The position numbers were made by a program, and so were the translations under genes. Source: Catenulispora sp. EB89 (GTDB lineage: Bacteria > Actinomycetota > Actinomycetes > Streptomycetales > Catenulisporaceae). Taken from it: a DNA stretch of 64,000 nucleotides. Below, in pieces: positions 37,480 through 62,478 of this stretch; within the stretch, counting starts at the first letter, position 1; each line of letters begins with the position of its first letter. The stretch is from NCBI RefSeq assembly GCF_041261445.1, contig NZ_JBGCCU010000013.1, positions 62,001 to 126,000 of the forward strand. The letters are read 5' to 3'. Under the pieces are notes generated by a model that saw nothing but the letters and a program-made list of their open reading frames with translations, did no database searches and had not been told where the DNA came from.

Positions 37480-37508
37480 CTAGTCAGCAGTAAATTACTC
37501 GTCAGTAG
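37480..37508. promoter_or_regulatory. 29-bp inverted repeat in thiolase/epimerase divergent promoter
   Basis: The region is symmetrical around 37494: 20 of 28 flanking bases pair, including the perfect core AGTAAATTACT (37489-37499). Its right half contains TTACTCGTCAGTAG (37495-37508), a TTACT-N4-AGTA element. The site lies between the two divergent start codons and could control both directions. Confidence 0.6.
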
Positions 37509-37571
37509 CTTAGGGTGTCGTCTTCGACACAACCCCGCGCGCGCCCAAGACCATCCCGGGAGGATGTCCCC

Positions 37572-38015
37572 ATGTCTTCACCACTGACCCGCATCGACCA
37601 CATCGGCATCGCGTGCCGCGACCTCGACGAGACCGTCGAGTTCTACCGCGCGACCTACGGCTTCGAGGTCTTCCACTCCGAGGTCAACGAGGAGCAGGGC
37701 GTCCGCGAGGCGATGCTGAAGATCAACGACACCGGCGACGGCGGCGCCAGCTACCTGCAGCTGCTGGAGCCGATCCGCGAGGACTCGGCCATCGCGAAGT
37801 GGATGGCGAAGAACGGCGAGGGCGTGCACCACGTCGCCTTCGGCACCGCCGACGTCGCGGCCACGACCACCGACATCGTCGGCAAGGGCGTGCGCTCGCT
37901 GTACCCGGAGGCGCGGCGCGGGAGCATGGGCTCCTCGATCAACTTCCTGCACCCGAAGGACGCGCACGGGGTGCTGGTGGAGCTGGTGCAGGCCGCCGAG
38001 AGCGACGAGCACTGA
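37572..38015 (+). CDS. mce: Methylmalonyl-CoA epimerase
   Basis: A 147-residue VOC-fold enzyme that interconverts the 2R and 2S forms of methylmalonyl-CoA (and ethylmalonyl-CoA). Metal ligands are visible: His10 in RIDHIGIAC, His87 in GEGVHHVAFG and Glu137 in GVLVELVQ. YLQLLEPIREDSAIAKWMAKNGEGVHH is the family signature. I start at the ATG at 37572 (MSSPLTRIDH), with GGGAGG upstream. It is divergent from thiolase-meaB. It would supply (2R)-methylmalonyl-CoA to the mutase, or the 2S extender unit to polyketide synthases. Confidence 0.94.
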   Translation: MSSPLTRIDHIGIACRDLDETVEFYRATYGFEVFHSEVNEEQGVREAMLKINDTGDGGASYLQLLEPIREDSAIAKWMAKNGEGVHHVAFGTADVAATTTDIVGKGVRSLYPEARRGSMGSSINFLHPKDAHGVLVELVQAAESDEH

Positions 38016-38069
38016 CAAGGACGAGCACCGATAAGACCGACAAGCAGACCGGGCCCTCACTCGGATGGA

Positions 38070-38096
38070 GTCGCCCGGATGGCGTATCCGGGCGAC
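38070..38096. terminator. Hairpin between convergent mce and deacetylase genes
   Basis: GTCGCCCGGAT and its perfect complement with loop GGCGT (11-bp stem). It sits between the mce stop (38015) and the deacetylase stop (38099), so it can terminate both transcripts. No U-run is present on either strand. Confidence 0.65.
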
Positions 38097-38098
38097 CA

Positions 38099-38806
38099 TC
38101 ACACTCCCACGCGGCCGTGTTCACGAAGCGGGCCGACCGCCCACCCGCGCTCGTCGCAGTGGTCGAGGAGCAGCGGCACGGCGCCGAGCGTGGCGTGCCA
38201 GGAGCCGGGCTTGGCGGTGCAGTCGGTGTCGTGGAGCAGGATCGTGCCGCCGCCGGTGAGGTCCTTGGTGACCTGGCGGTGGACGCCGCTCGGGGTGGCA
38301 CGCGCCGTCCAGTCCTCGCCCCAGCTGGTCCAGAGCGTGGGCCGCAGCCCCAGATGCCGAGCGCTGCGGTGCGCCGAGGCGGTCATGACTCCATAAGGCG
38401 GCCGGAACAGTGTCGGCTGCTCGCCGGTGAGGTCGGCGAGGAAGTCGCGGGCCCGAGTCAGGTCCTGGTCAGTCGCCCGGGGGCTGCGGAACAACAGGCT
38501 CTGGTGGTGCCAGCCGTGCACGCCGATCTCGTGCCCGGCCGCCTGGATCTCGCGGACCAGGCCCGGTGCGCGCTCGGCCATCGCGCCGAGCAGGAAGAAG
38601 GTCGCGTGCACGCCCCGCGCCGCCAGCAGTTCCAGGAAGCGCGGTGTCGAGTTCGGGTCCGGACCATCGTCGAAGGTCAAGGCGACATGATCAACAGCAC
38701 CGCGCGCCGCCAACCCGGGCAGCACTCGGTTGCGGACCGGACCAAAGGTCGTAGTCGCCGGAAAGGGATGCAGGAGCACAGTCGCGGCAGCAGCCAAGGT
38801 GCGCAT
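38099..38806 (-). CDS. Polysaccharide deacetylase (NodB domain, CE4)
   Basis: A 235-residue CE4-type deacetylase. After a short hydrophobic N-terminus (RTLAAAATVLLHPFPATT), the NodB motifs appear in order: VALTFDDGPDPNSTPRFLELLAARGVHATFFLLG (motif 1, metal-binding DD), HGWHHQSLLF (motif 2, HxxxH-like), FRPPYGVMT (motif 3) and ILLHDTD (motif 5). It should remove acetyl groups from N-acetylglucosamine-type sugars. Its ATG shares one base with the stop of the upstream glycosyltransferase (TGATG at 38804-38808), so the two are translationally coupled and probably work on the same glycan or glycolipid. Confidence 0.92.
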   Translation of the reverse strand: MRTLAAAATVLLHPFPATTTFGPVRNRVLPGLAARGAVDHVALTFDDGPDPNSTPRFLELLAARGVHATFFLLGAMAERAPGLVREIQAAGHEIGVHGWHHQSLLFRSPRATDQDLTRARDFLADLTGEQPTLFRPPYGVMTASAHRSARHLGLRPTLWTSWGEDWTARATPSGVHRQVTKDLTGGGTILLHDTDCTAKPGSWHATLGAVPLLLDHCDERGWAVGPLREHGRVGV

Positions 38807-40155
38807 CAGACCGCCGCCGCCGCTGCCGAGCCGACCGCCGAGCCAGCCAGGCCCGCCGGACCAGCCGAGCCAACTGAGCCAGCCAGGCCCGCCGGACCAG
38901 CCGAGCCAACTGAGCCAGCCAGGCCCGCCGGACCAACCGAGCCAGCCAGGCCCGCCGGACCAGCCGAGCCAACTGAGCCAGCCAGGCCCGCCGGACCAAC
39001 CGAGCCAGCCAGGCCCGCCGGACCAACCGAGCCAACACCGGCACTGGCACCAGCACCAGCCACCCGACCCCCACCACCCAGCAGCTCCATGATCACCGCA
39101 TCCGCCTCCGCCCCGTCCCCGACCATCGCCAGCCCGGCATTGTGCTGCCGCCGCCCCCGCACCCCCGAGGCCAGCTCCCGCAGCGCCCCCGCCAGTTCCC
39201 CCTCCGACCGCACCCACACCGCGAGCCCGGCCTCGTCCAGCACCGCCGCGTTCGTCCGGCCGTGCCCGACCAGGCTCCGGTAGGTCGCGACCGGCAGGCC
39301 GGTGGCGAAGGCCTCCAGCGTGGAGGAGGCCCCCGCGTTCTGCACCATCACGTCGGCGGCCGCCATCAGCGTCGGCATGTCCCCGACCCAGCCGAACACG
39401 TGCGGGAACCCCGCCGCGCGGAGCCGCCCCCGCAGCACCTCGTTGCGTCCGCACACCACCACCGGCGTCACCACGCCCGAGGCCGCCAGGTCGCGTGCGG
39501 TGCGCTCGATGTCGCCGACGCCCCAGGAGCCGCCGAGCAGCAGGGCCAGCGGCTTGTCCGCCGTGTCCAGGCCGAAGCGCGCCCGCGCCGCCTGGCGCCG
39601 GGCCGCCGTGCGCGCGGTGAACCGGGCCGACACCAGCGGCCGGGCCACCGCGACCCGGGACGGCGCCACGCCGTGCGCCACCGCCTGGGCCGCGGTCACC
39701 GCGTGCGGCGCCAGGTACAGGTCCACGCCCGGCGCGATCCACAGCGGGTGCACCGAGAAGTCCGTGAACGTCACCACCACCGGCACCGCCAGGCGCCCCG
39801 AGGCCCGCAGCCGGCCCAGCACCTGCGCCGCCAGCGGGTACGTCGCCACCGCCGCGACCGCGTCCGGCGGTATCGCGTCCAGCACCGCCTGCTCCGCGCC
39901 GCGCAGCAGGTGCCGCTGCACCAGGCCGGGGCGCGCCGCGCGCTCGGTGCGCGAGTAAATGCACTGGTACAGCGCCGGGGCGTGCGTGATGATGCGCCGG
40001 TAGGAGCCGCACACCGCGCGGCCGGCGGGCATCAGGGCCAGGAAGTCGTGCCGGTCGACCGCGAAGCCGCGCGCGGTCAGCCGGTCGGCGAGGGCCTGGG
40101 CGGCGCTGTCGTGACCGGCGCCGACCGAGGCGGAGAAGATGACCACGCGGGACAT
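38806..40155 (-). CDS. MGDG-synthase/MurG-like glycosyltransferase with collagen-like tail
   Basis: A 449-residue GT28-type glycosyltransferase. The N-terminal half starts SRVVIFSASVGAGHDSAAQALADRL, the monogalactosyldiacylglycerol-synthase signature, and includes YTRxx-like SYRRIITHAPALYQ. The C-terminal donor-binding half contains LLLGGSWGVGDIERTA, FGWVGDMPTLMAAADVMVQNAGASSTLEAFATGLPVATYRSLVGHGRTNAAVL. The last ~80 residues are GSVGPAGLA repeats. The ATG at 40153-40155 has GGAAGGA upstream. It is coupled to a NodB deacetylase, resembling systems that add and then deacetylate a sugar on a lipid carrier. The exact acceptor is unknown. Confidence 0.9.
   Translation of the reverse strand: MSRVVIFSASVGAGHDSAAQALADRLTARGFAVDRHDFLALMPAGRAVCGSYRRIITHAPALYQCIYSRTERAARPGLVQRHLLRGAEQAVLDAIPPDAVAAVATYPLAAQVLGRLRASGRLAVPVVVTFTDFSVHPLWIAPGVDLYLAPHAVTAAQAVAHGVAPSRVAVARPLVSARFTARTAARRQAARARFGLDTADKPLALLLGGSWGVGDIERTARDLAASGVVTPVVVCGRNEVLRGRLRAAGFPHVFGWVGDMPTLMAAADVMVQNAGASSTLEAFATGLPVATYRSLVGHGRTNAAVLDEAGLAVWVRSEGELAGALRELASGVRGRRQHNAGLAMVGDGAEADAVIMELLGGGGRVAGAGASAGVGSVGPAGLAGSVGPAGLAGSVGSAGPAGLAGSVGPAGLAGSVGSAGPAGLAGSVGSAGPAGLAGSAVGSAAAAAV
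38841..39024 (-). repeat. Minisatellite (27/36-bp units) encoding collagen-like tail
   Basis: The 22-bp core AGCCAGCCAGGCCCGCCGGACC (in plus-strand reading, split by the spacer AGCCGAGCCAACTG or AACCG) occurs six times at 38841, 38877, 38913, 38940, 38976 and 39003. Spacings are 36, 36, 27, 36 and 27 bp, all multiples of nine. Cores are identical, so the array is young and probably variable in length between strains. It encodes GSVG(SAG)PAGLA units. Confidence 0.92.
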
Positions 40156-40329
40156 GTGAGTCCTTCCGGAGAACATTCGGAGAAGGTGTTTCGGACTCAT
40201 CCCATGCTGGTCACGGCGGGCCGCCGGATCAGTAGTGCGACCTGGCGGTTCGGGGGTGGGGCCAGCACCACCCCCGGGGTGAGGCAGACCTGATGGACCC
40301 GGCTCGACCTGCGCGAATACCGTGAACGC

Positions 40330-41605
40330 GTGCCGACGACGCGAGAGAACCTGCGAATCCGCTGGGGCCAGGCCGGGTGGGACGCCCTGTTCCTGGTGAG
40401 CGGGCTGCCGCTGTGGGCCGGGTCGATGGTGGTGCTGCTGGTCTGGAGCCAGCCGGTGTTCCTGCTCGTGAAGGCGGCCGACCCCGGCATCCTGCGCTTC
40501 GGGCTCTCCGTGGTGGTGGTCCTGGCCGGGGTGCTCACGGCGGCGCCCTTCCTGACGCGCTGGGAACGCAACCGTTTCCGCACGTTCCGGAACGTGGAGA
40601 TCCACCGGGTCGAGACGCCGCGGCTGTTCCGGGGCGAGTTCCGTCAGGCCCTGCGCTCGGAGGCGCTGTGGCGCCAGACGCTCTACCACCTGATAGCCGG
40701 CCCGCTGATCGGGCTGGCCGTGGTGGGCCTGGCCTTCATGGACCTGCTGGCGATCGTGGTGGCGGTCAAGCTCCCCGCGCACGCGCTGGTCCTGATCGAC
40801 CCCCGGCACGGCGTCAGCAGCAAGTTCTGGGGTCAGTGTGCTTACATCCTGCTGGCCGGCACCGCCACCTACTTCGGACCGCGCCTGATCCGCCTGCTCG
40901 CCAACGCCGACCTCGCCGCCGCCCGGCGCCTGCTCGGCCCGAGCGAGACCATCGTGCTGGCGAACCGGGTGCAGACGCTGTCCGACAGCCGCGCCGCCGC
41001 GGTCGAGGCGGCCGACGCCGAGCGCCGCCGCATCGAGCGCGATCTGCACGACGGCGCGCAGCAGCGTCTGATGTCGCTGGCCGTGCACCTGGGCATCGCC
41101 CGCAAGACGCTCAAAGAACGGGGCGACGTGCCCCCCCGACGCGATGAGTGTCATCATCGACGCGCACGGGCAGGTCAAGGACGCGATGGCGGAGATCCGG
41201 AACCTGGTGCGCGGCCTGCATCCGGCGGTCCTGGACGACCGCGGCCTGGACGCCGCGCTGTCCGGCGTCGCGGCGCGCTCGGCCGTCCCGGTGCGGCTGA
41301 CCGTCGGCGCCACCGGTCCGCTCAGCGCGTCGGTGGAGACGGTCGCCTACTTCGTGGTCTCCGAGGCGCTGGCGAACGTGGTCAAGCACTCCCGCGCGAA
41401 GCAGGCCGCGGTCGACGTCTCCCGGCAGCAGGACCACCTCCTGATCCGGGTCAGCGACGACGGTGTCGGCGGCGCGGACGCGCAGGGCGGCACCGGCCTG
41501 ACCGGGCTGGCGCAACGGGTCGCTTCGGTGGACGGCCGGCTGCGGCTAACATCACCGAGCGGCGGTCCGACCGTCCTGACCGCCGAGCTGCCCTGCGGGG
41601 TGTGA
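40330..41605 (+). pseudogene. NarL-system sensor histidine kinase, frameshifted
   Basis: A two-component kinase read in two frames. From the GTG at 40330 the first frame encodes a membrane sensor domain with several helices (GAGSMVVLLVW-type segments, residues 15-215) and the HisKA_3 dimerisation domain with phospho-acceptor His240 (ERRRIERDLHDGAQQRLMSLAVHLG). The frame then fails at GDVPP within seven consecutive C (41131-41137). The +1-shifted frame continues DAMSVIIDAHGQVKDAMAEIRNLVRGLHPAVLDDRGL and the ATPase domain (EALANVVKHSRAK, VSDDGVGG, GTGLTGLAQRV), ending at 41605. With six C the gene would be a normal 424-residue kinase. Either a real mutation, a phase-variable tract or a sequencing error is possible. 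Confidence 0.88.
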
Positions 41606-41620
41606 ATTCCAGGGGGAACC

Positions 41621-42262: not shown

Positions 42263-42290
42263 CGCAACACGTCCGCATTAGCCTCCGCGC

Positions 42291-43022: not shown

Positions 43023-43105
43023 CGTCAAGATGTTGCAGGGTGATAGGTACCCGGCGGAATCTGTGACAAGGCCCACCTAGCCAGGGTGCGGGCGGAGCGC
43101 CATAG

Positions 43106-43119
43106 TTACCAGTGAGTAG
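43106..43119. promoter_or_regulatory. Candidate TTACY-N4-AGTA operator before ccr
   Basis: TTACCAGTGAGTAG, 91 bp upstream of the ccr start codon. It shares the TTAC and AGTAG ends and the spacing with the site at 37495-37508. Confidence 0.5.
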
Positions 43120-43210
43120 CTCCCGCCCTCACCCCCAGGGCCGACTGCCGTACTGCCCTCACAGACGGCAAGCACCGGCCCGCGACGCCGCCGACCCCTG
43201 GAGGCCGACG

Positions 43211-44560
43211 ATGCAGCATGAGATTGCAGAGATTCTCGCCGCGATCCAAACCGGGAACACCCCGGCCGAGGACTTCGCGCACCTGAAGCTTCCCGACACC
43301 TACCGCGCGGTCACCGTCCACGCCGACGAGGCCGAGATGTTCGCGGGGATGGAGAGCCGGGACAAGGACCCGCGGCGGTCGCTCCACGTGGAGGACGTGG
43401 CGACGCCGGAGCTGGGTCCGGGCGAGGCCATCGTCGCGGTGATGGCCAGCGCCATCAACTACAACTCGGTGTGGACCTCGATCTTCGAGCCGGTCTCCAC
43501 CTTCAGTTTCCTCAAGCGCTACGGCAAGGTGTCCGAACTCACCCGCCGGCACGACCTGCCCTACCACGTGATCGGCTCGGACCTGGCCGGCGTCGTGCTG
43601 CGCACCGGGCCCGGCGTCAACAAGTGGAAGCCGGGCGACGAGGTGGTCGCGCACTGCCTGAGCGTCGAGCTGGAGGACGCCGAGGGCCACGACGACACCA
43701 TGCTCGACCCGCAGCAGCGGATCTGGGGCTTCGAGACCAACTTCGGCGGCCTGGCGCACCTGGCGCTGGTCAAGGCCAACCAGCTGATGCCCAAGCCGGA
43801 CCACCTGACCTGGGAGGAGGCCGCCTCCCCGGGGCTGGTCAACTCCACCGCCTACCGCCAGCTGGTCTCCAAGAACGGCGCGGCGATGAAGCAGGGCGAC
43901 GTGGTGCTGATCTGGGGCGCCTCCGGCGGCCTGGGCAGCTACGCGACGCAGATGGCGCTGAACGGCGGCGCGATCCCGGTGTGCGTGGTCTCCTCGCCGG
44001 ACAAGGCGGAGATCTGCCGGGCGATGGGGGCCGACCTCATCATCGACCGCAAGGCCGAGGGCTACCGGTTCTGGAAGAGCGAGACCGACCAGGACCCCAA
44101 GGAGTGGCAGCGGTTCGGCGCGAAGATCAGGGAACTGACCGGCGGCGAGGACCCGGACATCGTCTTCGAGCACCCGGGCCGGGAGACCTTCGGCGCCAGC
44201 GTCTACGTCGCCAAGCGCGGCGGCAAGATCGTCACCTGCGCGTCCACCTCCGGCTTCAACCACAGCTACGACAACCGCTACCTGTGGATGAACCTCAAGA
44301 GCATCATCGGCTCGCACTTCGCCAACTACCGCGAGGCCTGGGAGGCGAACCGCCTCATCGACAAGGGGATGATCCACCCCACGCTGTCGAAGACCTACGC
44401 GCTGGAGGAGACCGGCCAGGCCGCGTACGACGTCCACCAGAACCTGCACCAGGGCAAGGTCGGCGTGCTCTGTCTGGCACCCGAGGAAGGGCTCGGCGTG
44501 CGTGACGCGGCCAAGCGCGAGCGGCTACTGCCCGCGATCAACCGGTTCCGCAACGTCTGA
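43211..44560 (+). CDS. ccr: Crotonyl-CoA carboxylase/reductase
   Basis: A 449-residue medium-chain dehydrogenase/reductase that carboxylates crotonyl-CoA with NADPH and CO2 to (2S)-ethylmalonyl-CoA, key step of the ethylmalonyl-CoA pathway and source of an extender unit. The four CO2-pocket residues described for the Kitasatospora enzyme are present with a constant offset of four: Asn85 (INYNSVW), Phe174-Glu175 (WGFETNFGG) and His369 (GSHFANY). The nucleotide fold motif is WGASGGLGSYATQMA. The ATG at 43211 has GGAGG upstream and fits the family; the frame is open further upstream without resemblance. A strong terminator follows. Confidence 0.96.
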   Translation: MQHEIAEILAAIQTGNTPAEDFAHLKLPDTYRAVTVHADEAEMFAGMESRDKDPRRSLHVEDVATPELGPGEAIVAVMASAINYNSVWTSIFEPVSTFSFLKRYGKVSELTRRHDLPYHVIGSDLAGVVLRTGPGVNKWKPGDEVVAHCLSVELEDAEGHDDTMLDPQQRIWGFETNFGGLAHLALVKANQLMPKPDHLTWEEAASPGLVNSTAYRQLVSKNGAAMKQGDVVLIWGASGGLGSYATQMALNGGAIPVCVVSSPDKAEICRAMGADLIIDRKAEGYRFWKSETDQDPKEWQRFGAKIRELTGGEDPDIVFEHPGRETFGASVYVAKRGGKIVTCASTSGFNHSYDNRYLWMNLKSIIGSHFANYREAWEANRLIDKGMIHPTLSKTYALEETGQAAYDVHQNLHQGKVGVLCLAPEEGLGVRDAAKRERLLPAINRFRNV

Positions 44561-44606
44561 TCCGCGCCCCGGCCCACCCCTGGCGCGAGACGGCGTGTCC
44601 CGACAT

Positions 44607-44645
44607 CCGAGCGGAGGCGGCATTGCCCGCCTTCGCTCGGTTTTT
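44607..44645 (+). terminator. Rho-independent terminator of ccr
   Basis: 14-bp stem with one G-U pair (CCGAGCGGAGGCGG / CCGCCTTCGCTCGG), loop CATTGC, followed by TTTTT at 44641-44645. It lies 46 bp after the ccr stop. Confidence 0.93.
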
Positions 44646-44854: not shown

Positions 44855-47800
44855 ATGGGACCAGGGCGGCTCGACGAACGCAGCACCGATCGCTACGGCG
44901 ATCGTGCCGGCGATCGCGGATCCCACGCGCGCCGCGGCGCGAACTCCGCGCAATCCGGCGGTTACCCGCCGCGATCACGCGCGCCCTACGGCGAGTCGTA
45001 CGAGTCCTACGAGGACGAACCCGGCGGCTACGACAAGCACGACGTCGAGGCCACGTTCTCGGAGATGGAGAAGGAGCTCGACAAGCTCCGCACGGCCCGC
45101 GACGAGGCCGTCACCGACACCGAGGACCTGCGCTACCAGATCGAGGTCCTGCGCTCCAAGCTGCACGAGCAGCGCCGCCTGGCCGCCCAGCCGCGCTTCG
45201 ACAACATCTCCGGGCAGGTGGAGCAGATGCTCCGCAACGCCCAGATCCAGGCCGACCAGGTCCGCGCGGCCGCCGAGCGCGAGCTGCGCGAGTCCCGCGC
45301 GAAGACCGCACGCCTGCTGGAGGAGGCCGCGCACCGCTCCGCGGAGCTGGAAGCCGAGTGGCACACCGAGGTCGGCAACCGGCGGCAGTCGCTGGACCGC
45401 GAGCTGACCGAGAAGCGGCAGCAGGCCGAGGCTCAGGTCAACGAGATGGCCGCGTGGGCCGAGAAGGTCCGCTCGGACACCGAGGCGCACCGCGGCCGGA
45501 TCATCGAGGCGGCCCGCGGCGAGGTCGAGGCCGGCCGCGACCGGATAGCGATGGAGACCGCGCAGGCCATCGAGCACGTCCGCATGGAGACCGAGAACAT
45601 GCGGACCGCGGCGCGCGCCGAGGCCGAGAAGACCCGCGAGGGGGCCCAGGCCGAGGCCGAGCGGGTGCTGAACGCGGCCGGCAGCCAGGCCGCGCAGGCC
45701 CAGGAGCACGCCCAGCAGATCCGGGCCACCGCCAAGTCCGAGGCCGACGCGTCGGTGAACGCCGCGCGCGCCGAGGCCTCGCGGATGCTGATGGAGGCCG
45801 GCGGGCAGGCCGAGCGGATGCGCGCGGAGTCCAACGCCGAGGCGCTGCGGGTGCGCGGCGAGGCTGAGGCGGCGGCGCAGCACCTGCGGGCCGAGTCCGA
45901 GGCGGCCGCGCAGCAGGCCCGCCAGGAGGCGGCGAACGACGCCGCGCGGATGCGCGCCGAGGCCCGCTCGGAGGCCGACCAGGTCACCGGGAACGCCGGG
46001 CGGATCCTGGCCGAGGCCGAGGAGCAGGCGGCGACGCGGCTGGACCAGGTCGCCAGGACCGTCGAGGAACTGATCGCCAAGGGCCAGAGCGACGCCGACG
46101 CCACGCGCGTGGCCGCCGAGGAGGACGTGGCCCCGCTGCGCGGCCAGATCGAGGCGCTGCACGCGCAGGCCAGCGAGCTGCACTCGGCGGCGCAGCAGGC
46201 GCACGAGGACGCGCACACGGCCGCCGAGCAGCTGCGCGTGGACACCGAGGCCGGTGTCGAGGCCATGCAGAACGCGGCCCGCGAGGAGATGCAGCGGCTG
46301 CGCGAGAAGACCCAGGCGCGCATCGACGAGCTGCAGGCCCGGACCGAGGCCGAGACGGCCAAGGCGCGCGACGGCGCGGACCGGTACTCGCAGAACACCC
46401 GCGGCGAGGCGGACACCTACGCGACCACCACCCGGACCGAGGCGGACCGCTACGCCGACAACACCCGCAACGCGGTCAACGCCGAGACCGACAAGCTGCG
46501 CTCGGACAGCGAGGACTACTCGCGGACCACGCGGCAGGACGCTGATACCTACGCCGCGCAGATCCGGGCGACGACCGACGCCGAGGCGGGCAAGGTCCGC
46601 GCGGACGCCGACGGCTACGCGCAGCAGATGCAGCAGGCCGCCGACCAGTACTCGCTGCAGACCCGGAACGACGCCGACGCGTACTCCGAGGGCATGCGGG
46701 GCGAGGCCGACGCGTACGCGGCCAAGACGAAGGCGGACTCCGAGCTCGCCTCGGAGAAGCTCCAGGCCGACACCGACAACTACGCGACCGGGGTCCGGGC
46801 CGAGGCGGACGGCTACGCGGCCAAGACCAAGGCCGACGCCGAGCACGCGGCCGACCGGCTGCGGGTCGAGACCGAGAACTACTCGGTCGGCGTGCGGGCC
46901 GAGGCGGACGCCTACGCGTCGAAGACGAAGGCGGACTCCGAGCAGGTCGCCGAGAACCTGCGGATCGAGACCGAGAACTACTCCGTGGGCGTGCGGTCCG
47001 AGGCCGACGCCTACGCCGCGAAGACGAAGGCGGACTCCGAGCAGGCCGCGGAGAACCTGCGCGTCGAGACCGAGAACTACTCGGCCGGAGTGCGCGGCGA
47101 GGCCGACGCCTACGCCGCGAAGACGAAGGCCGACGCGGAGCAGGTCGCGGAGAACCTGCGGATCGAGACCGAGAACTACTCGGCCGGAGTGCGTGGCGAA
47201 GCCGACGCCTACGCGGCGCAGACCAAGGCCGACTCCGACCGGGCGGCCGACGAGGTGCGGTCCGAGGCCGAGAAGTACTCGCACACCACGCGTGCGACGG
47301 CCGACGTGTACTCGGCGAAGACGAAGGCCGACGCGGAGCGGGCCGGCGAGGTCGTCCGCGTCGCCGCCGACGACTACGCCAACGCGCTGCGGGCCGAGAC
47401 CGAGGCGTACGCGGCCAAGACCAAGGCCGACTCCGACCGGGCCGCGGAGGTCACGCGTGCCGAGGCCGACTCCTACGCCGCGCAGACCCGGCAGGCCGCC
47501 GAGGCCGCCGGGAACGAGGCCATGGAGGCCGCGCAGGCCGAGGCGCGCAAGATCGGCGAGGAGGGCACGCGCTACGCCGCGGCCGTGCGCGCCGAGGTCG
47601 CCGGGATAGTGGAAGAGGCGCAGGCCGCCGCGGACCGGCAGATCGCCGACGCCGAGCGGATCCACGGCGAGGCCGAGGCGGCCGCCGCGGTGCTCGGGGT
47701 GGAGGCCGCCGAGGAGGCGGTGCAGGTCCGGGCCGAGGCACGCCGGGACGCCGCCGCGATGCGCGCCGAGGCCGAGGCCGCGCTGACCGAGGCCCGCACC

Positions 47801-48460
47801 AAGTCGGACACCATGGTGAAGGCCGCGAAGTCGGAGTCCGAGCGCATCCACCACGAGTCGGCGGCGAGCGCCGAGGCGGCGCGGGCCGACGCCGACAAGA
47901 TCCGCAGCGACGCGCGCGAGGAGGCCGGCCGCAAGCTGGAGGCCTCCGGCCGGGACGCGGACAAGCTGGTCTCGATGGCGCGCTCGGAGGCCGTCAAGGT
48001 GCGCGCCGACAGCGAGAACGAGGTGGACCGGATGCTGGCGGCCGCCCGCGAAGAGGCCGCGCGCGTCACCACGACCGCCGAGAACGACGCCGAGCGCGTC
48101 ACCTCGGGGGCCAAGGCGGACGTCGAGCGCATAAGGCGGACCGCCGACGGCGTGCTGGAAGCCGCCGACAAGAAGGCGCTGGAGACCCGGGAACAGGCGA
48201 ACTCCGAGGCCGAGACCGCGCTCGCGACGGCCCGGAAGCAGGCCGCTGAGACCGTCGCCGAGGCGCGGGAGCTGGCCGAGCAGCTGGTGGCCAAGGCCAA
48301 GGACGAGACCGAGCAGTTGCGGGCGGACGCCAAGCGCGAGGTCGAGGAGATCGAAGTGCGCAAGCAGGAGATCAAGGCCGAGATGTCGCGGGTGCACGGC
48401 GTGCTGGACGCGCTGGCGACATCGGTCTCCGTTCCCGTCGGGCCGCCGTCGGAGGACTGA
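44855..48460 (+). CDS. scy: Scy-like polarisome coiled-coil protein
   Basis: A 1201-residue cytoskeletal coiled-coil protein, homologous by layout and context to Streptomyces Scy, which recruits DivIVA and FilP and sets tip-growth sites. Residues 1-60 are disordered and basic (Arg/Gly/Ser/Tyr). The head reads FSEMEKELDKLRTARDEAVTDTEDLRYQIEVLRSKLHEQRR, then SGQVEQMLRNAQIQADQVRAAAERELRESRA, which closely matches Scy. Almost all the rest is Ala/Glu/Arg-rich coiled coil with heptad and hendecad periodicity and no membrane segment. A central block (about 609-872) is eight 33-residue repeats (ENYSVGVRAEADAYAAKTKADSE type). The ATG at 44855 lacks a clear ribosome site. filP follows directly. Confidence 0.9.
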   Translation: MGPGRLDERSTDRYGDRAGDRGSHARRGANSAQSGGYPPRSRAPYGESYESYEDEPGGYDKHDVEATFSEMEKELDKLRTARDEAVTDTEDLRYQIEVLRSKLHEQRRLAAQPRFDNISGQVEQMLRNAQIQADQVRAAAERELRESRAKTARLLEEAAHRSAELEAEWHTEVGNRRQSLDRELTEKRQQAEAQVNEMAAWAEKVRSDTEAHRGRIIEAARGEVEAGRDRIAMETAQAIEHVRMETENMRTAARAEAEKTREGAQAEAERVLNAAGSQAAQAQEHAQQIRATAKSEADASVNAARAEASRMLMEAGGQAERMRAESNAEALRVRGEAEAAAQHLRAESEAAAQQARQEAANDAARMRAEARSEADQVTGNAGRILAEAEEQAATRLDQVARTVEELIAKGQSDADATRVAAEEDVAPLRGQIEALHAQASELHSAAQQAHEDAHTAAEQLRVDTEAGVEAMQNAAREEMQRLREKTQARIDELQARTEAETAKARDGADRYSQNTRGEADTYATTTRTEADRYADNTRNAVNAETDKLRSDSEDYSRTTRQDADTYAAQIRATTDAEAGKVRADADGYAQQMQQAADQYSLQTRNDADAYSEGMRGEADAYAAKTKADSELASEKLQADTDNYATGVRAEADGYAAKTKADAEHAADRLRVETENYSVGVRAEADAYASKTKADSEQVAENLRIETENYSVGVRSEADAYAAKTKADSEQAAENLRVETENYSAGVRGEADAYAAKTKADAEQVAENLRIETENYSAGVRGEADAYAAQTKADSDRAADEVRSEAEKYSHTTRATADVYSAKTKADAERAGEVVRVAADDYANALRAETEAYAAKTKADSDRAAEVTRAEADSYAAQTRQAAEAAGNEAMEAAQAEARKIGEEGTRYAAAVRAEVAGIVEEAQAAADRQIADAERIHGEAEAAAAVLGVEAAEEAVQVRAEARRDAAAMRAEAEAALTEARTKSDTMVKAAKSESERIHHESAASAEAARADADKIRSDAREEAGRKLEASGRDADKLVSMARSEAVKVRADSENEVDRMLAAAREEAARVTTTAENDAERVTSGAKADVERIRRTADGVLEAADKKALETREQANSEAETALATARKQAAETVAEARELAEQLVAKAKDETEQLRADAKREVEEIEVRKQEIKAEMSRVHGVLDALATSVSVPVGPPSED
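46679..47470 (+). repeat. Eight 99-bp repeats encoding hendecad coiled-coil units in Scy-like protein
   Basis: Eight consecutive in-frame units of exactly 99 bp, 33 residues or three hendecads each, with no spacer. Units 3-5 (from 46877) are the most alike: NYSVGVR, EADAYAAKTKADSEQ, AENLRIETE. The outer units are diverged, so duplication appears to have spread from the middle. Conserved aromatic Tyr residues occur at positions 2 and 13 of each unit. Confidence 0.95.
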
Positions 48461-48734
48461 GACACATCGTGTGCGTTCCGACGCCGCCGCTGCATCATGA
48501 CTCGCCGCAGGTTCTCGCCCACGGCCCGTGAACCATGATCAGTGAAGACACTCGATAGGGCGGGGTTCGGCGGGTCCGTTTGTTCGATTACGCGCCACTC
48601 GGTCGAAGCGAAGCGCGTTTCGTGCCAGGATTCCCCTACACCACCTCCTTCGGTACATACACCTTCACCGCCACTTGTAGATTGTTCACTCACCCCCGGC
48701 CCGACGCGGGCCAGTGAATCGCGACAGGGATCTC
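48461..48734. other. Intergenic region before filP
   Basis: 274 bp without a gene. It probably holds the filP promoter; TGTAGATTG near 48675 is the best -10-like sequence but no matching -35 is clear. No terminator hairpin is evident after scy, so read-through into filP is possible. Confidence 0.4.
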
Positions 48735-49688
48735 ATGAGCGACATGCATTCGCCGCACGGCTTCGAGCAAGTGCGCCGCGGGTACGACCCGGTCCAGGTC
48801 AACGACCGAATCACCAAGCTGATCGCCGAGCGGGACGCGGCGCATTCGCGTTCTTCCTCCATGGAGAAGCGCATCGAGGAACTCCACCTGGAGAACCAGA
48901 CGGTGCAGGCGCAGCTCGCCGACAGCGAGCCCAGCTACGCCGGTCTCGGCGCGCGCGTGGAGAAGATCCTGCGCCTGGCCGAGGAAGAGGCGAAGGACCT
49001 GCGCGAGGAGGCCCGCCGCGCCGCCGACGCGCACCGCGAGCTGGCCGACCAGGCCGCGATGAAGGTCCGCACCGACGCCGAGCAGTACGCCAAGGACCGC
49101 AAGGCCAAGGCGGACGAGGAGGCCGTGCGGATCGTCGAGAAGGCCAAGGACGACGCCAACCAGGTCCGCGCCACCGCCGCCAAGGACGCGGCGACCAAGC
49201 GCGAGGAGGCCGAGGCGCTCTTCGAGGAGACCCGTGCCAAGGCCGCGGCGGCCGCCACCGACTTCGAGACCAAGCTGGCCAAGCGCCGCGAGCAGTCCGA
49301 GCGCGACCTGGCGGCCCGCCAGGCCAAGGCCGAGAAGCGCCTCGCCGAGATCGAGAACCGCGCCGAGCAGCTCCGCCTGGAGGCGGAGAAGATGCGCACC
49401 GACGCCGAGCGCCGCGCGCGCTCCACGATCGAGACCGCGCAGCGCCAGGCCGACGACATCATCGCCGACGCCCGCAGCAAGACCGACCGCATCCGCAGCG
49501 AGGCCGAGCGCGAGCTGGCGGCGCTGACCCACCGCCGCGACAGCATCAACGCGCAGCTGCACAACGTGCGCGAGATGCTGGCCACCCTCACCGGTGGCGC
49601 GGTGAACGTCAACGCGCTGGCCGCCCTCGGCGAGGCCGAGGACGAGCTGGAGGCCGCCGACGAGGCGTCCATCCCGGCGCAGCGCTAG
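48735..49688 (+). CDS. filP: Filament-forming protein FilP
   Basis: A 317-residue intermediate-filament-like coiled-coil protein that gives hyphal tips stiffness and interacts with DivIVA and Scy. The N-terminus (HGFEQVRRGYDPVQVNDRITKL) resembles the DivIVA-like start. EPSYAGLGARVEKILRLAEEEAKDLREEARRAA and LAKRREQSERDLAARQAKAEKRLAEIENRAEQLRLEAEKMRTDAERRAR are near-identical to Streptomyces FilP, as is the C-terminal LTHRRDSINAQLHNVREMLATL. I start at the ATG at 48735 (AGGG upstream); a GTG seven codons earlier is in frame but less likely. It lies directly downstream of the Scy-like gene, the order known in Streptomyces, and ends in two hairpins. Confidence 0.95.
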   Translation: MSDMHSPHGFEQVRRGYDPVQVNDRITKLIAERDAAHSRSSSMEKRIEELHLENQTVQAQLADSEPSYAGLGARVEKILRLAEEEAKDLREEARRAADAHRELADQAAMKVRTDAEQYAKDRKAKADEEAVRIVEKAKDDANQVRATAAKDAATKREEAEALFEETRAKAAAAATDFETKLAKRREQSERDLAARQAKAEKRLAEIENRAEQLRLEAEKMRTDAERRARSTIETAQRQADDIIADARSKTDRIRSEAERELAALTHRRDSINAQLHNVREMLATLTGGAVNVNALAALGEAEDELEAADEASIPAQR

Positions 49689-54916: not shown

Positions 54917-54917
54917 G

Positions 54918-55934: not shown

Positions 55935-56020
55935 ACGCTGCTTTTCCACGCCTTTTCCGTAAGCTTCGACACGGAGCCAGGGCACACTGGCTCCGTCTCG
56001 TGCTGTCTGAGGGGGCCGCC

Positions 56021-57972: not shown

Positions 57973-57983
57973 CGTTCCGGGGC

Positions 57984-58020
57984 TAGGTGCTCGCCTTGCG
58001 CGAAGTGAGGCGAGCACCTA
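57984..58020. terminator. Bidirectional hairpin between exporter operon and antiporter gene
   Basis: TAGGTGCTCGCCT and its perfect 13-bp complement enclose an 11-nt loop. One arm contains the stop codon of the convergent antiporter gene (58018-58020), so transcripts from both sides end within the same structure. Confidence 0.75.
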
Positions 58021-59115
58021 CCCCCACCAGAACGCCGTCGCGATCAGCACGTAGAGCCCGATCATCGCGGAGCCCTCCAGCCAGTCGGACTCCCCGTCCG
58101 AGATCAGGTAGAGCACCGCCACCGTCGCGATCCCGACCGTCGTGACCAGCATCGGGTTGAAGACCAGCGTGAACGCCGGGCCGCCGATCACCGGCGACAG
58201 CAGCACCAGCGCCGGCGCGAGCACCAGAGCGATCTGCAGCGGGCTGTTCAGCACCACCGACAACGCGTGGTCGGTGCGGTTCTGCCACGCCAGCTTCACC
58301 CCGACCGCGTTCTCCACGGCGTTGCCGGCCAGCGCCACGATCACCAGGCCGGAGAAGGCCTGCGAGATGTGCAGGGAGTGCATCGCGGGCGTCAGGGCAT
58401 TGACGAACTGGTCCGAGACGTAGGCGGCACCCATGGCCGCCACGACCAGAACCCCGATCGCCAGCCAGAGCGGCCACGGGTTGTCCGCGTCGATCTCCTG
58501 CTTCACCTCCGCGGCCTCCTCGGCGGCGGTCGGCTCCAGATCGCGCCGCAGGCTCACCGGGATCGACAGCGCGAAGACCGCCAGCAGCACCACCGCCGTG
58601 ACCCGGGCCAGCGCGACCTCGTGGCCGGCGGCCGGGGAGTGGATGTAGGCGGCGAGGCTGGGGATCAGCATCGAGGCCACCGACAGGATCATCAGACCCA
58701 TGATGAGCCGGGCCCGCTGGATCGAGAACCGCAGGACGCCGTGCCGCGCGCTGCCGACCACGAACGAGAGCCCCAGGACCAGCAGCAGGTTCGCCATGAT
58801 CGAGCCGATGATGGCCGAGCTCACCACCGTGGTCAGCCCGGCGCGCAGCGCGAACACGGACACGAACAGCTCCGGCAGGTTCCCCAGCGCCCCCTGCAAC
58901 ACCCCGACCGCCCCGGCCCCGAGCCGGTCGGCCAGGTGGTCCACGGCGCGCCCGACCATCGCCGCCACCAGCGTGACGGCGACCGCCGTGATCAGGAACG
59001 GGGCCAGCGAGCCGGACGTCACGAGTGCCGAGCCCAGAACCGCGAGCCCGGTCAGGCCGAACAGGATCAGATCCGACCGGGAGAAGACTCGTGAGGCCCC
59101 CGTGAGTGCGGTCAT
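58018..59115 (-). CDS. Calcium/cation:proton antiporter (CaCA, CAX family)
   Basis: A 365-residue membrane antiporter with about eleven helices arranged as two homologous halves. Each half carries the signature acidic motif: GALGNLPELFVSVFALRAG in the first and ALAGNAVENAVGVKLAWQN in the second, corresponding to GNxxE of CAX proteins, which exchange Ca2+ for H+. A cytoplasmic acidic loop LEPTAAEEAAEVKQEIDADN separates the halves. I start at the ATG at 59113-59115 (MTALTGASRV), where the first helix begins 13 residues later; the frame upstream is open only by GC bias. Likely role is calcium export and alkali tolerance. Confidence 0.92.
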   Translation of the reverse strand: MTALTGASRVFSRSDLILFGLTGLAVLGSALVTSGSLAPFLITAVAVTLVAAMVGRAVDHLADRLGAGAVGVLQGALGNLPELFVSVFALRAGLTTVVSSAIIGSIMANLLLVLGLSFVVGSARHGVLRFSIQRARLIMGLMILSVASMLIPSLAAYIHSPAAGHEVALARVTAVVLLAVFALSIPVSLRRDLEPTAAEEAAEVKQEIDADNPWPLWLAIGVLVVAAMGAAYVSDQFVNALTPAMHSLHISQAFSGLVIVALAGNAVENAVGVKLAWQNRTDHALSVVLNSPLQIALVLAPALVLLSPVIGGPAFTLVFNPMLVTTVGIATVAVLYLISDGESDWLEGSAMIGLYVLIATAFWWG

Positions 59116-59135
59116 GCCGGGGACTATAGGGGATC

Positions 59136-59900
59136 TCAGGCCTCGGGCTTGCGCGCCTCGATCAGGAACCGCCGCGAGTACCCCACGAACGACCCCTCGC
59201 GCTCGATGTGCTCGTGCAGGCGCGCCAGGTCGTCGCGGTACTTCTCGACCGTGAAGTCCGGCACGAACCAGATCACCTTGCGCAGGAAGTAGACCATCGC
59301 CCCGACGTCGAAGAACTCCATCTTCAACTCGGCCTCCTGCAGGCTCACGAGTTCGAGCCCGTTCTTGGCCACCTCCTGGCGCGCCGCCTCCGGCTCCCGG
59401 AAGCTCCTGCCGGTGGGCTTGGGACCCAGGAACCACTCGTAGACCTCGTGGCCGCTGTCCGGGCCGATGTGCTGCGAGAAGTAGGTGCCGCCGGGGGCCA
59501 GCACGCGGGCGATCTCCCGCCAGTGCGCCATCACCGGGTGCCGGCTGGTGACCAGGTCGAAGCTGCCGTCGGCGAACGGCAGCGGCGGCTCGTCCTCGTC
59601 GGCGACGATGACCACGCCCTTGGCCCGCAGGTTCGCCTGCGCGACCGCGATGTTCGGCGGCCAGCCCTCGGTGGCGACGGTGGCGCCGGACGCGCGCTGC
59701 GGCACCCCGGCCAGCACCTCGCCGCCGCCGGTCTGGATGTCCAGGTGCAGGTGCGCGCGGCCGATGCGCTCACCCATCTGCCGCTGGTAGCCCCAGGGCG
59801 GGCGCTCCTCGGTGGCGCGGCCGTCGAGCCAGGAGAAGTCCCAGCCGCTGACGTCGACCGCGTCGGCCTCCGCGATGAGTTCCTCGAATGTGCGGTCCAT
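59136..59900 (-). CDS. Class I SAM-dependent methyltransferase
   Basis: A 254-residue methyltransferase (Methyltransf_11-like). The glycine-rich motif I is LDIQTGGGEVLAGVP, followed by PPLPFADGSFDLVTSRHPVMAHWREIARVLAPGGTYFSQHIG (motifs II-III). Motif I is LDxQTGGGE rather than LDxGCGTG, a variant known in a subgroup of actinobacterial enzymes. I start at the ATG at 59898-59900 (MDRTFEELI); the upstream open frame is GC-rich repeat without resemblance. The substrate is unknown. Its stop is 20 bp from the start of the antiporter gene downstream on the same strand, so the two may be co-transcribed. Confidence 0.9.
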   Translation of the reverse strand: MDRTFEELIAEADAVDVSGWDFSWLDGRATEERPPWGYQRQMGERIGRAHLHLDIQTGGGEVLAGVPQRASGATVATEGWPPNIAVAQANLRAKGVVIVADEDEPPLPFADGSFDLVTSRHPVMAHWREIARVLAPGGTYFSQHIGPDSGHEVYEWFLGPKPTGRSFREPEAARQEVAKNGLELVSLQEAELKMEFFDVGAMVYFLRKVIWFVPDFTVEKYRDDLARLHEHIEREGSFVGYSRRFLIEARKPEA

Positions 59901-60217
59901 GGCGGAAATGATCGCGGGTCGGCGCGCCCGGCGCCAAGGGTACGGCGTGTCCGCGCCCTGACTTTGTCGAAGCGTTACCTCGGACGGTGGCGGCGCCACG
60001 CTTTCCGACCCGGCGCCGTCGAGCCCGGCGCCGTCGAGCCCGGCGCCGTCGAGCCCGGCGCTGTCCGGCCCGGCGCAGTCCGACCGAGCTGCGGCCGCGC
60101 GCCGTGCTTTCCGGCCCGGCGCCGTCGGGCCCGACGCAGTCCGACCGGCGCAGTCTGACCCGCCGGCGGCCGTGCGCCGCGCACCGCGCTTTCCGGCCCG
60201 GCGCTTTCCGGCCGGCG
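59901..60217. other. 317-bp gene-free region with short tandem repeats
   Basis: The region between the methyltransferase and the zinc-ribbon gene holds no supported gene. It consists largely of 15-bp repeats at 60009-60083 and looser GC-rich copies of CCGGCGC and TTTCCGGCCCGGCG up to 60217. Open frames across it exist on both strands only because stop codons are excluded by base composition. Confidence 0.6.
60009..60083. repeat. 15-bp tandem repeat, five copies
   Basis: CCCGGCGCCGTCGAG occurs three times exactly (60009, 60024, 60039), then two variants (CCCGGCGCTGTCCGG at 60054 and CCCGGCGCAGTCCGA at 60069). Degenerate copies continue to about 60165. Each unit can pair with itself (GGCGCC). 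Confidence 0.92.
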
Positions 60218-60535
60218 CTACCTGGCGCGCCGCCGCCCGCGCGCGTTCCAGCACGGCGTGTGCCAGTGCCGCCGGTCGTGGATGCCCTGGCCGAGGTCCT
60301 TCGGCCAGGCCACGACGTGCGGCACCCCGGCCCGGATCTCCTGGTCGCAGCCGGGGCACCGGTACACCTTCTGCGCCGCCTGCCCCGGGATCCCGCGCAC
60401 GGCCCAGTCGCGGCCGTCGGGACCGGGCTCGATCCGGTCGTAGCCCAGGACCCGCGAGGCCATCCGGGCGGACGCGCCGTCCTGCTCGTCGTCGGGGACG
60501 TCGGAGCGGCGGGGCGGGCGGCGGCGCGGGCTCAT
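60218..60535 (-). CDS. Small zinc-ribbon-like protein
   Basis: A 105-residue protein. A basic N-terminus (SPRRRPPRRSDVPDDEQDG) leads to a conserved core: YRCPGCDQEIRAGVPHVVAWPKDLGQGIHDRRHWHTPCWNAR. The CxxC, the His-rich HDRRHWH and the final Cys are spaced like a small zinc ribbon; similar proteins in Streptomyces carry the misleading label ATP/GTP-binding protein. I start at the ATG at 60533-60535, within the open frame that reaches 60643. Function is unknown; binding of nucleic acid or a partner protein is plausible. It is 79 bp downstream of the 3-hydroxyacyl-CoA dehydrogenase gene on the same strand. Confidence 0.85.
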   Translation of the reverse strand: MSPRRRPPRRSDVPDDEQDGASARMASRVLGYDRIEPGPDGRDWAVRGIPGQAAQKVYRCPGCDQEIRAGVPHVVAWPKDLGQGIHDRRHWHTPCWNARGRRRAR

Positions 60536-60614
60536 GCCTCCAAGGGTAGTCAGAGCGCGCGCCGCGTTCGGCCGTGCGGGTCCCCTGTCAACCGAATATT
60601 CGGCGCCGGCCGGG

Positions 60615-62405
60615 TCAGCGGGAGCTGTAGTCCCGGAACCCACGTCCTGCCTTGCGTCCCAGGTATCCCGCGGTCACCAGGTGTTCCAGCAGCGGCGCCG
60701 GGGCGAACCCGGGCTCGCGGAACTCCAGGTAGAGCACGCGCTGGATGGCCAGCGACACGTCCAGGCCGACGACGTCCAGCAGTTCGAACGGCCCCATCGG
60801 GTACCCGCATCCGCGCTTCATCGCGGTGTCGATGTCGTCGGCGGTGGCGTAGTGCGCCTCCAGCATCTTCACCGCGTCGTTCAGGTACGGGAACAGCAGC
60901 GCGTTCACGATGAAGCCCGCGCGGTCGCCGCAGTCCACCGCGACCTTGCCGAGCTTCCCGCACACCGCGTGGACGGTGGCGACCACGTCGTCCGCGGTCT
61001 TCACCGTGCGCACCACCTCGACCAGCTTCATCACCGGCGCCGGGTTGAAGAAGTGCACGCCGACCACGTCGGCCGGGCGCTGCGTGGCCATCGCGCACTC
61101 GATGACCGGCAGCGAGGAGGTCGTGGTGGCCAGGATCGCGCCGGGCTTGCAGAGCTCGTCGAAGTTCGCGAACAGCGCGCGCTTGACCTCGACGTCCTCC
61201 ACGACCGCCTCGACGACCAGGTCGCAGTCGGCGAGGTCGGCCAGGTCGACGGTGCCGTGCAGCCGGGCCAGCGCGGCGTCCCGGTCGGCCTCGGCGAGCT
61301 TGCCGCGCTGCACGGCCTTCTCCAGCGAGCGCGTGATCGCGGCCCGCGCGGCGTCCACCTTGGCCGAGGACCTGGCGACCAGCACGGTGTCGTAGCCGGC
61401 CTTGACGCAGACTTCCGCGATGCCGTTGGCCATCGTGCCGGAGCCGACGACGCCGATCCGCCGCACCTCGCGGACCTGGTCGCCGTGCCGGCCCAGCCCG
61501 CCGGCGCCGGGGGTCTGCTCGTCGTCGACCACGACGGGCGAGTCAGAGCTCTCATACGTGTAGAACCCGCGGCCGGTCTTGCGGCCGAGCAGCCCGGCGG
61601 TCGCCATCTGCTTCAGGATCGGCGCCGGGGCGTGCAGCCGGTCGCGCGACTGCCGGTACATCGTGTCCAGGATCTCGTAGGCGGTGTCGATCCCGATCAG
61701 GTCCAGCAGCGCCAGCGGGCCCATCGGCAGGCCGCAGCCGAGCTTCATCGCGGTGTCGATGTCCTCGCGGGTGGCGTACTTCTGCTCGTACATCGCCACC
61801 GCGTGGTTCAGGTAGCCGAACAGCAGCGCGTTGGCGATGAAGCCGGCCCGGTCGCCGCAGGTGACGTCGTCCTTGCCGAGCCGGCGCACCAGCGCCTCGA
61901 CGTCCTCGACCACCTCCGGGTCGGTGACCACGGTGCGCACCACCTCGGCCAGCTTCATGACCGTGGCCGGGTTGAAGAAGTGCACGCCGACCACGCGCGA
62001 GGGGCGCGCGGTCGCCACCGAGATCTCGGTCACGGACAGCGCCGAGGTGTTGGTGGCCAGCACGGTCTCCGGCGGACAGATGGCGTCCAGCCGCTGGAAG
62101 ACCGAGCGCTTGAGCTGCAGGTCCTCCGGCACCGCCTCGACGACCAGCTCGGCGGCGGCCAGGTCGTCCAGGCTGGTGCTGAACGTGACGCGGTCCTGGA
62201 GCTCCGCGGCCTCGGCGTCGGTCAGCTTGCCGCGCTTGACCGCGCGCGCCACGGAGGCCTGCAGGTGGCCCCGGCCCCGGGCCAGCCCGGCGTCGTCGAC
62301 CTCGACCCCGATGACCTTGATCCCGTTGCGGGCCATGACTTCGGCGATGCCGGCGCCCATCGTGCCCAGGCCGACGACGCCTATGGTGGTGAACTCGCGG
62401 GGCAT
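60615..62405 (-). CDS. 3-hydroxybutyryl-CoA dehydrogenase, tandem two-copy fusion
   Basis: A 596-residue protein consisting of two complete 3-hydroxyacyl-CoA dehydrogenases joined head to tail (1-295 and about 310-596). Each has an NAD-binding GxGxxG (GLGTMGAG, GSGTMANG), the catalytic segment GVHFFNP, and the C-terminal GDRAGFIxNALLFxYLN with MKxGCGxPMGPxxLLDxxGxD. Conserved residues are kept in both halves, so both may be active. It should convert acetoacetyl-CoA to 3-hydroxybutyryl-CoA with NAD(P)H, between thiolase and crotonase. The ATG at 62403-62405 has AGGAGA upstream. A TTACT-N4-AGTA element lies 60 bp upstream. Confidence 0.95.
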   Translation of the reverse strand: MPREFTTIGVVGLGTMGAGIAEVMARNGIKVIGVEVDDAGLARGRGHLQASVARAVKRGKLTDAEAAELQDRVTFSTSLDDLAAAELVVEAVPEDLQLKRSVFQRLDAICPPETVLATNTSALSVTEISVATARPSRVVGVHFFNPATVMKLAEVVRTVVTDPEVVEDVEALVRRLGKDDVTCGDRAGFIANALLFGYLNHAVAMYEQKYATREDIDTAMKLGCGLPMGPLALLDLIGIDTAYEILDTMYRQSRDRLHAPAPILKQMATAGLLGRKTGRGFYTYESSDSPVVVDDEQTPGAGGLGRHGDQVREVRRIGVVGSGTMANGIAEVCVKAGYDTVLVARSSAKVDAARAAITRSLEKAVQRGKLAEADRDAALARLHGTVDLADLADCDLVVEAVVEDVEVKRALFANFDELCKPGAILATTTSSLPVIECAMATQRPADVVGVHFFNPAPVMKLVEVVRTVKTADDVVATVHAVCGKLGKVAVDCGDRAGFIVNALLFPYLNDAVKMLEAHYATADDIDTAMKRGCGYPMGPFELLDVVGLDVSLAIQRVLYLEFREPGFAPAPLLEHLVTAGYLGRKAGRGFRDYSSR

Positions 62406-62464
62406 GGGTATCCGTCTCCTTGAGTTTCGGTGACTCGCAGCTACTAGAGGGATGGAGTCTGCGG

Positions 62465-62478
62465 TTACTGGCCAGTAT
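62465..62478. promoter_or_regulatory. Candidate TTACT-N4-AGTA operator before 3-hydroxyacyl-CoA dehydrogenase
   Basis: TTACTGGCCAGTAT contains the perfect 12-bp palindrome TACTGGCCAGTA, located 60 bp upstream of the dehydrogenase start and between it and the divergent LLM gene. It fits the same pattern as the elements before ccr and the thiolase/epimerase genes. Confidence 0.55.

Follow-up and report, generated by a model that had tools for sequence, protein, structure and literature searches.

A short palindromic element, TTACYNNNNAGTA (TTACYN4AGTA), precedes dispersed acyl-CoA genes in the 64,000-nucleotide stretch of the Catenulispora sp. EB89 genome that we analysed (hereafter the window) and is very probably bound by a fat-sensing TetR regulator of a known kind. 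We regard it as likely that its copies are operators of TetR proteins of the FasR/FdmR clade, whose regulon would here extend to the ethylmalonyl-CoA (EMC) pathway. The kind of regulator is already known; its reach to ccr and the other EMC genes is new as far as the literature was checked, and the portions of the matches listed in our search held no recognised description of this element or of an actinobacterial regulator of ccr or the EMC genes. The initial annotation of the sequence had proposed a single regulon under a TetR/GntR-like regulator sensing an acyl-CoA. One regulon with a TetR-type, lipid-related regulator is borne out by sites before acyl-CoA genes, by conservation within the family and by copies before FasR/FdmR-like TetR genes, and it is wider than first proposed, including beta-oxidation genes and most of the EMC pathway. 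A GntR protein need not be invoked, and acyl-CoA responsiveness is probable by homology to FasR and FdmR.

Sites, promoters and neighbouring genes

The window contains the exact pattern three times (at 37495, 43106 and 62465), where 100 dinucleotide shuffles average 0.01, and the three sites stand where they had first been reported, before the thiolase/epimerase, ccr and 3-hydroxyacyl-CoA dehydrogenase genes. With one mismatch allowed there are 12 sites versus 1.03 in shuffled sequence, a count in which palindromic sites may score on both strands. The operator-like palindrome TTACTCGTCAGTAG (37495-37508, plus strand) occupies the divergent gap between thl, which encodes acetyl-CoA C-acetyltransferase (36220-37416, minus strand; NCBIfam TIGR01930 above cut-off), and mce, the gene for methylmalonyl/ethylmalonyl-CoA epimerase (37572-38015, plus strand; TIGR03081 above cut-off). 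An imperfect second copy with one mismatch lies 15 bp from it (37480-37493, minus strand) and by eye is present in Catenulispora-type genomes and absent from the four more distant family members. The palindrome TTACCAGTGAGTAG (43106-43119, plus strand) begins 105 bp ahead of the start codon of ccr, encoding crotonyl-CoA carboxylase/reductase (43211-44560, plus strand; TIGR01751 above cut-off), whose closest named match among those listed is from Catenulispora rubra (95% identity). The third, TTACTGGCCAGTAT (62465-62478, plus strand), is common to hbd, a 3-hydroxybutyryl/3-hydroxyacyl-CoA dehydrogenase gene with two tandem domains (60615-62405, minus strand; NF005875 above cut-off in two stretches), and the divergent gene for a luciferase-like monooxygenase (62552-63523, plus strand; Pfam PF00296). 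The 'related core' that had been noted at 14166 proved to be a perfect palindrome of the same kind, TTACCGACCGGTAA, at 14168-14181.

Across the genome (11.9 Mb, 70 contigs) the exact pattern has 23 sites versus 7 for a reversed-pattern control. Because many sites are near-palindromic with inner S-R-Y-S, we rescanned with the fuller consensus YTACYSRYSRGTAR, which yielded 22 sites versus 5; the enrichment anticipated for a genome scan is thus present with either pattern. The strict palindrome TTACTN4AGTAA does not occur in this genome. Within the order, the 14 genomes of the family hold 269 sites versus 39 for the control, and the remaining 105 of the sample hold 1138 versus 269; every one of the 119 has sites, and the control is exceeded in all 14 family genomes and in 103 of the 105 others. 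In a sample of the class a match was found in 180 of 197 genomes, with an uneven excess. As a separate observation, one genome of family f12 (G144, sampled with G127 and G156) has 92 consensus matches, and CTACTCACCAGTAA-like words in these genomes are, at the places listed, often paired about 53 bp apart; these are probably a repeated element unrelated to the regulon.

The two scans together gave 36 distinct sites in the genome, 34 of them outside called genes, and a start codon was called 16-229 bp from the centre of all 36, the calls coming from a crude custom gene caller with uncertain start codons. The three exact sites and the 14168 palindrome likewise lie outside called genes, as the claim of promoter-proximal gaps had it. 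Control sites are mostly outside genes too (5 of 7, the caller having found no gene in one such locus), so that an intergenic position proves little by itself.

A site was found at thl and at hbd in 13 of the 14 family genomes each and at ccr in all 14; in G006 the thl promoter carries CTACTGACGCGTAA, with one mismatch, and the hbd match lacks its first 105 residues, so that its promoter is unreadable. When 13 promoters per gene were aligned, anchored on the site and with one ccr row omitted as too short, the inner six columns varied (one to three of six invariant) and the flanks varied more (7-15 of 90 invariant). The core columns are invariant partly by construction, the sites having been chosen by pattern, and the independent fact is that few promoters are without a site. 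The inner SRYS is kept at 12 of 13 thl and 13 of 13 hbd sites. At ecm a site was found in six of the eight genomes inspected (G000, G007 and G010-G013; in G010 at the very end of the preceding gene), and in G009 and G004 ecm lay outside the stretch fetched.

In a wider comparison, NTACYN4RGTAN lies within 600 bp upstream of 16 of 80 named ccr loci, the best 80 of at least 598, versus 0.72 expected by shuffling. Ten of the twelve loci read by title as non-Streptomycetaceae have the site, namely both Catenulispora, Actinospica, three Kribbella, two Geodermatophilus, Actinokineospora and a metagenome-assembled genome of the Mycobacteriaceae. Conservation in orthologous promoters therefore holds for the family and several other genera and fails in most Streptomyces-type ccr loci, to which we return below.

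Pfam or NCBIfam matches place an enzyme gene of acyl-CoA, fatty-acid or lipid metabolism within 250 bp of 16 of the 36 sites, counted as a raw share; the figure is 13 of 33 once the thl, ccr and hbd sites of the window are removed, and 20 of the 36 have no lipid-type gene by the families counted. These neighbours are three acyl-CoA dehydrogenases, a carboxyltransferase, an AMP-binding enzyme, FadA (followed by FadB), thl/mce, ccr, hbd, a methylmalonyl-CoA-mutase-type protein (ecm), an enoyl-CoA hydratase, a fatty-acid-hydroxylase-type protein, a mesaconyl-CoA hydratase, a thioesterase, a biotin carboxylase and a lipase. The count includes the broad families AMP-binding, biotin carboxylase, FA_hydroxylase and 4HBT and excludes an iron-sulfur protein (L003), a DUF4442 protein (L009) and a pyruvate-dehydrogenase-like gene (L006). 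Lipid-type neighbours accompany 14 of 24 sites with inner SRYS and 2 of 12 without it (one of these being ccr), a split made post hoc with a consensus drawn from the very sites that it divides.

Among the EMC genes, thl, mce, ccr, hbd, ecm and the mesaconyl-CoA hydratase gene (PF19315) carry a site, so that most of the pathway is covered; the ecm product was called as a mutase by PF01642, the label ecm coming from its placement and not from an ecm-specific model. An mcl-msd-like pair, in which an acyl-CoA dehydrogenase gene comes after a malyl-CoA-lyase-like one, carries a site with one mismatch. Some sites are doubled: at a class 2 lipase gene two of them stand 16 bp apart (L123:1135-1164), the spacing also seen at the promoters of two TetR genes of the third type introduced below (L167 and L170), and at an acyl-CoA dehydrogenase gene that by eye is FadE5-like the two are separated by 32 bp (L286:8949-8994).

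Candidate TetR regulators

Two TetR genes of the genome are themselves preceded by sites. One, which we call the C11 type (C11:171393-171998), is divergent from an acyl-CoA dehydrogenase gene, and the other, the C4 type (C4:528510-529130), from an alpha/beta hydrolase gene; among the ten sampled genomes of the genus the C4 TetR is present in all and the C11 TetR in eight. We searched up to 280 bp upstream of 93 TetR genes for NTAC-N6-GTAN, for which the shuffle expectation is 0.15-0.71 per group. The core TAC-N6-GTA precedes 29 of 30 C11-type orthologs in Catenulispora- and Streptomyces-type genomes, with one site each (the best 30 loci of a 60-genome search), all ten C4-type orthologs in the genus (from a search that supplied 30 of 41 loci), 7 of 10 FdmR-like genes of family f6 and all eight FasR genes of the order. 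At six TetRs of other types (L273-L278) the site is absent.

Both TetRs match structures of Mycobacterium tuberculosis FasR in the PDB (E 9.5e-25 and 2.5e-21), FasR being the closest solved structure for the C11 TetR and the second closest for the C4 TetR. The best structural match of the latter is 3f1b (E 7.8e-24), a TetR-like regulator from Rhodococcus with no function stated in its entry name, whose sequence by eye is near the FdmR-like set. A quick tree built from 53 of the 93 rows shows three superclades, of which the first unites the C4 type, a third type and the FdmR-like proteins, the second holds FasR and the last the C11 type. The C4 TetR joins a 27-row superclade with the FdmR-like rows (SH-aLRT 98), outside their own 20-row branch and with long branches flagged. 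The FasR gene of this genome, by synteny, is a third gene (C2:224780) between a ThiF/rhodanese gene and a DUF3107 gene, and we take SCO2386 to be the FasR of Streptomyces coelicolor. The FasR genes of the order (L238, L239, L240, L171, L172, L175, L177 and L185) have upstream TAC-N6-GTA sites of their own, of the CTACTCGCGCGTAG or TTACCCAAAAGTAC type, which suggests cross-talk between fat synthesis and fat breakdown.

The available portion of the FasR study describes dimers bound consecutively on a 25-mer crystal DNA (PMC7382501); the 25-mer as given there includes TACCCGTACGTA and AACTCGCCAGTA, both differing from TACYN4RGTA at a single position, and two such copies arise in 0.02% of its shuffles. 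This genome and its relatives have tandem sites too, 15 bp apart at thl (the second imperfect) and 16 bp apart at the lipase L123 and at L167 and L170. FasR (Rv3208) thus resembles the candidates in its homologous TetR fold, in a crystal DNA with a related element and in the same element upstream of the FasR genes of the order. It differs in that FasR activates fatty-acid synthesis and many of the targets here are degradative; in the same portion it is an activator of fas-acpS that is displaced by acyl-CoA of C16 and longer (PMC7382501).

FdmR (Rv0238) of mycobacteria shares its TetR superclade with the C4 TetR in the quick tree, and its targets are degradation genes, as are many of the putative ones here. 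It is described as a repressor of genes for fatty-acid degradation that responds to long-chain acyl-CoA (PMC12403877). The C4 TetR differs in having an alpha/beta hydrolase as its neighbour and in a putative regulon that adds ccr, ecm, mce and mesaconyl-CoA hydratase. Each of the ten FdmR-like genes of family f6 has at least one neighbour of the GH3, MaoC or AftD type by Pfam, which we take to correspond to the gene order Rv0236c-Rv0242c. The neighbourhood aftD / lpqI / htdX / fabG4 of Rv0238 is not present at the C4 TetR locus, and we therefore describe this TetR as FdmR-like in its presumed working without classing it as FdmR. CcrR of Methylobacterium, a TetR-type regulator reported to act on ccr, is alphaproteobacterial and described as an activator.

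Other candidates fared less well. The TetR gene of the window (15747-16406) and the two MarR genes have no full site and no family match above cut-off, and are therefore poor candidates. A TetR next to L119 is a weak FasR match (34 bits) and was set aside, as were the operators of Rv0158, MadR and SCO3201, whose motifs, in the portions of the sources available, differ from the element.

Weighing the readings

Several observations weigh against assigning the sites to TetRs of the FasR/FdmR clade. On the side of the element, family f17 (19 genomes) has no excess (78 sites versus 78 for the control) and the ten genomes of family f31 hold one site altogether. A Nocardioides and a Frankia ccr locus are without a site, as are most of the other 68, Streptomyces-type ccr loci (with which L031 and L055, of doubtful title, were grouped), 6 of the 68 having one 312-357 bp upstream. 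The inner SRYS is found at only 1 of the 14 ccr sites of the family, so that the ccr site has its own flavour, and consensus promoter scans at three sites found none. On the side of the regulators, the NCBIfam FasR model NF053731 scores 105 and 101 bits for the two TetRs, below its cut-off of 330, which makes them FasR homologs and not FasR itself. The operator is partial among third-type TetRs (5 of 14) and the FasR genes of family f6 (3 of 12) and absent from nine other TetRs, three of which (L166, L250 and L262) fall inside the C4/FdmR superclade, with L166 and the C4 TetR sharing 54% identity; the operator is thus not kept throughout that superclade.

The distribution of the regulators is also awkward. 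G009, which is 99% complete, has no close C11-type relative (best 34% identity) and keeps the thl, hbd and ccr sites among 20 in total; the other genus genome without a C11 type, G006, is only 77% complete. G010-G013 are without close relatives of either TetR, yet keep sites. Three of these four have a third-type TetR, two of them with an upstream site, and in G011 the matches at E 1e-20 are one FasR-like gene and one other-type TetR without a site. Four TetRs considered as the missing regulators of G010-G013 (L280-L283) have no site. At the third-type TetR of G010, which has no upstream site, two sites 16 bp apart lie between the gene and the next one (L169:2359-2388).

Some of these points bear on whether both TetRs are needed. 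The C11-type TetR alone might control the regulon, leaving to the C4 TetR just its hydrolase pair, and the single sites at 29 of 30 orthologous loci and the acyl-CoA dehydrogenase neighbour would fit; we hold this to be rather unlikely, as G009 and G010-G013 keep their sites without a close ortholog. Very unlikely, in our judgement, is a regulator of another kind that reads a similar TAC-N6-GTA at the C4/EMC genes while the FasR/FdmR-like TetRs read their own promoters only. It would accommodate G011, which keeps sites with no FdmR-clade TetR detected, and the deviating interior of the ccr sites, and first-look counts put many further TetR candidates in the genomes of the order. Such a regulator is hard to reconcile with the single consensus that fits the sites at the TetR promoters, thl and hbd, and with the lack of a site at the six other-type TetRs. 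That the sites are a chance or compositional product of AT-rich promoter regions is exceedingly improbable despite the intergenic position of most control sites: counts are three to seven times those of the control, the sites are conserved over 14 genomes with changing inner bases, and their neighbours are biased in function. Chance is refuted for the set as a whole, and single sites (L005, L019, L021 and L023) may owe their presence to it.

Operators of FasR/FdmR-clade TetRs thus remain the reading that we prefer, and binding, the division of sites between the two TetRs, the ligand and the sign of control are what we infer from sequence and homology. The C4 and/or C11 TetR would bind the 14-bp palindrome at or near its target promoters, the proposed targets being thl, mce, ccr, hbd, ecm, mesaconyl-CoA hydratase, fadAB, acyl-CoA dehydrogenases, acyl-CoA carboxylases and the lipase, and each TetR would regulate its own gene through its operator copy. 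By analogy with FdmR the targets would be repressed until acyl-CoA builds up, whereupon fatty-acid breakdown and the onward use of its products, from acetyl-CoA through crotonyl-CoA to ethylmalonyl-CoA, would be switched on together. That FasR activates whereas FdmR represses allows either sign of control, and this too counts against the scheme. With moderate confidence we favour repression relieved by an acyl-CoA because many targets are degradative. We give some, though minor, credence to activator sites of the FasR kind, at which a TetR would turn genes on until released by long acyl-CoA. FasR activates while bound to a related sequence, by the portion of the study available (PMC7382501), and thl, hbd and ccr also make C4 units, which is the synthetic direction. 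The many other degradative targets (FadAB, acyl-CoA dehydrogenases and lipase), sites as near to start codons as 16-229 bp and the description of FdmR, in the part available, as a repressor of fatty-acid degradation (PMC12403877) argue the other way.

Other features of the window and wider significance

The palindrome TTACCGACCGGTAA lies 222-223 bp upstream of a gene for a DUF6230 protein (13271-13945, minus strand; Pfam PF19741), and in G009 and G004 the identical sequence stands at the identical distance. The intervening leader of about 220 bases is by eye strongly conserved over its entire length in the same two genomes (window 13946-14260) and may contain a further control element; an Rfam scan of the window gave 0 matches. 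The weaker half-site GGACTGGTGAGTAG that had been placed before marR is present at 20099 and absent upstream of marR in both relatives compared (G009 and G004), and we do not count it as a member of the regulon. Around it (20099-20112) the marR upstream region differs from those two relatives as after an insertion or loss. The gene for the mutase-associated GTPase MeaB (35234-36193, minus strand; TIGR00750 above cut-off) directly follows thl on the same strand. Directly 3' of ccr (45065-49688) are genes for a 1131-residue coiled-coil-like protein and then a 317-residue one, which by eye resemble the cell-polarity proteins of filamentous actinobacteria.

We lean, if only slightly, towards a broader proposition, that an acyl-CoA sensor of the FasR/FdmR clade runs the EMC pathway together with beta-oxidation in the Catenulispora family and does so piecemeal in other ccr-bearing actinobacteria; in Kribbella, Geodermatophilus, Actinokineospora and the Mycobacteriaceae metagenome-assembled genome, what was seen is the ccr site only. 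According to the available part of work on S. coelicolor published in 2017, no description then existed of the signals and genes that regulate the breakdown of triacylglycerol and fatty acids in these bacteria, and oleate induces two of the three fadAB promoters (PMC5539140). What the element contributes is a defined operator, together with two candidate regulators and a set of putative targets. Many polyketides use ethylmalonyl-CoA and methylmalonyl-CoA as extender units, and the element may also offer a handle on the supply of both. If the proposed regulon holds, one fat-derived signal would set both the supply of acetyl-CoA and that of the ethylmalonyl- and methylmalonyl-CoA building blocks of polyketides, and the related site of FasR itself would join fatty-acid synthesis to the same loop.

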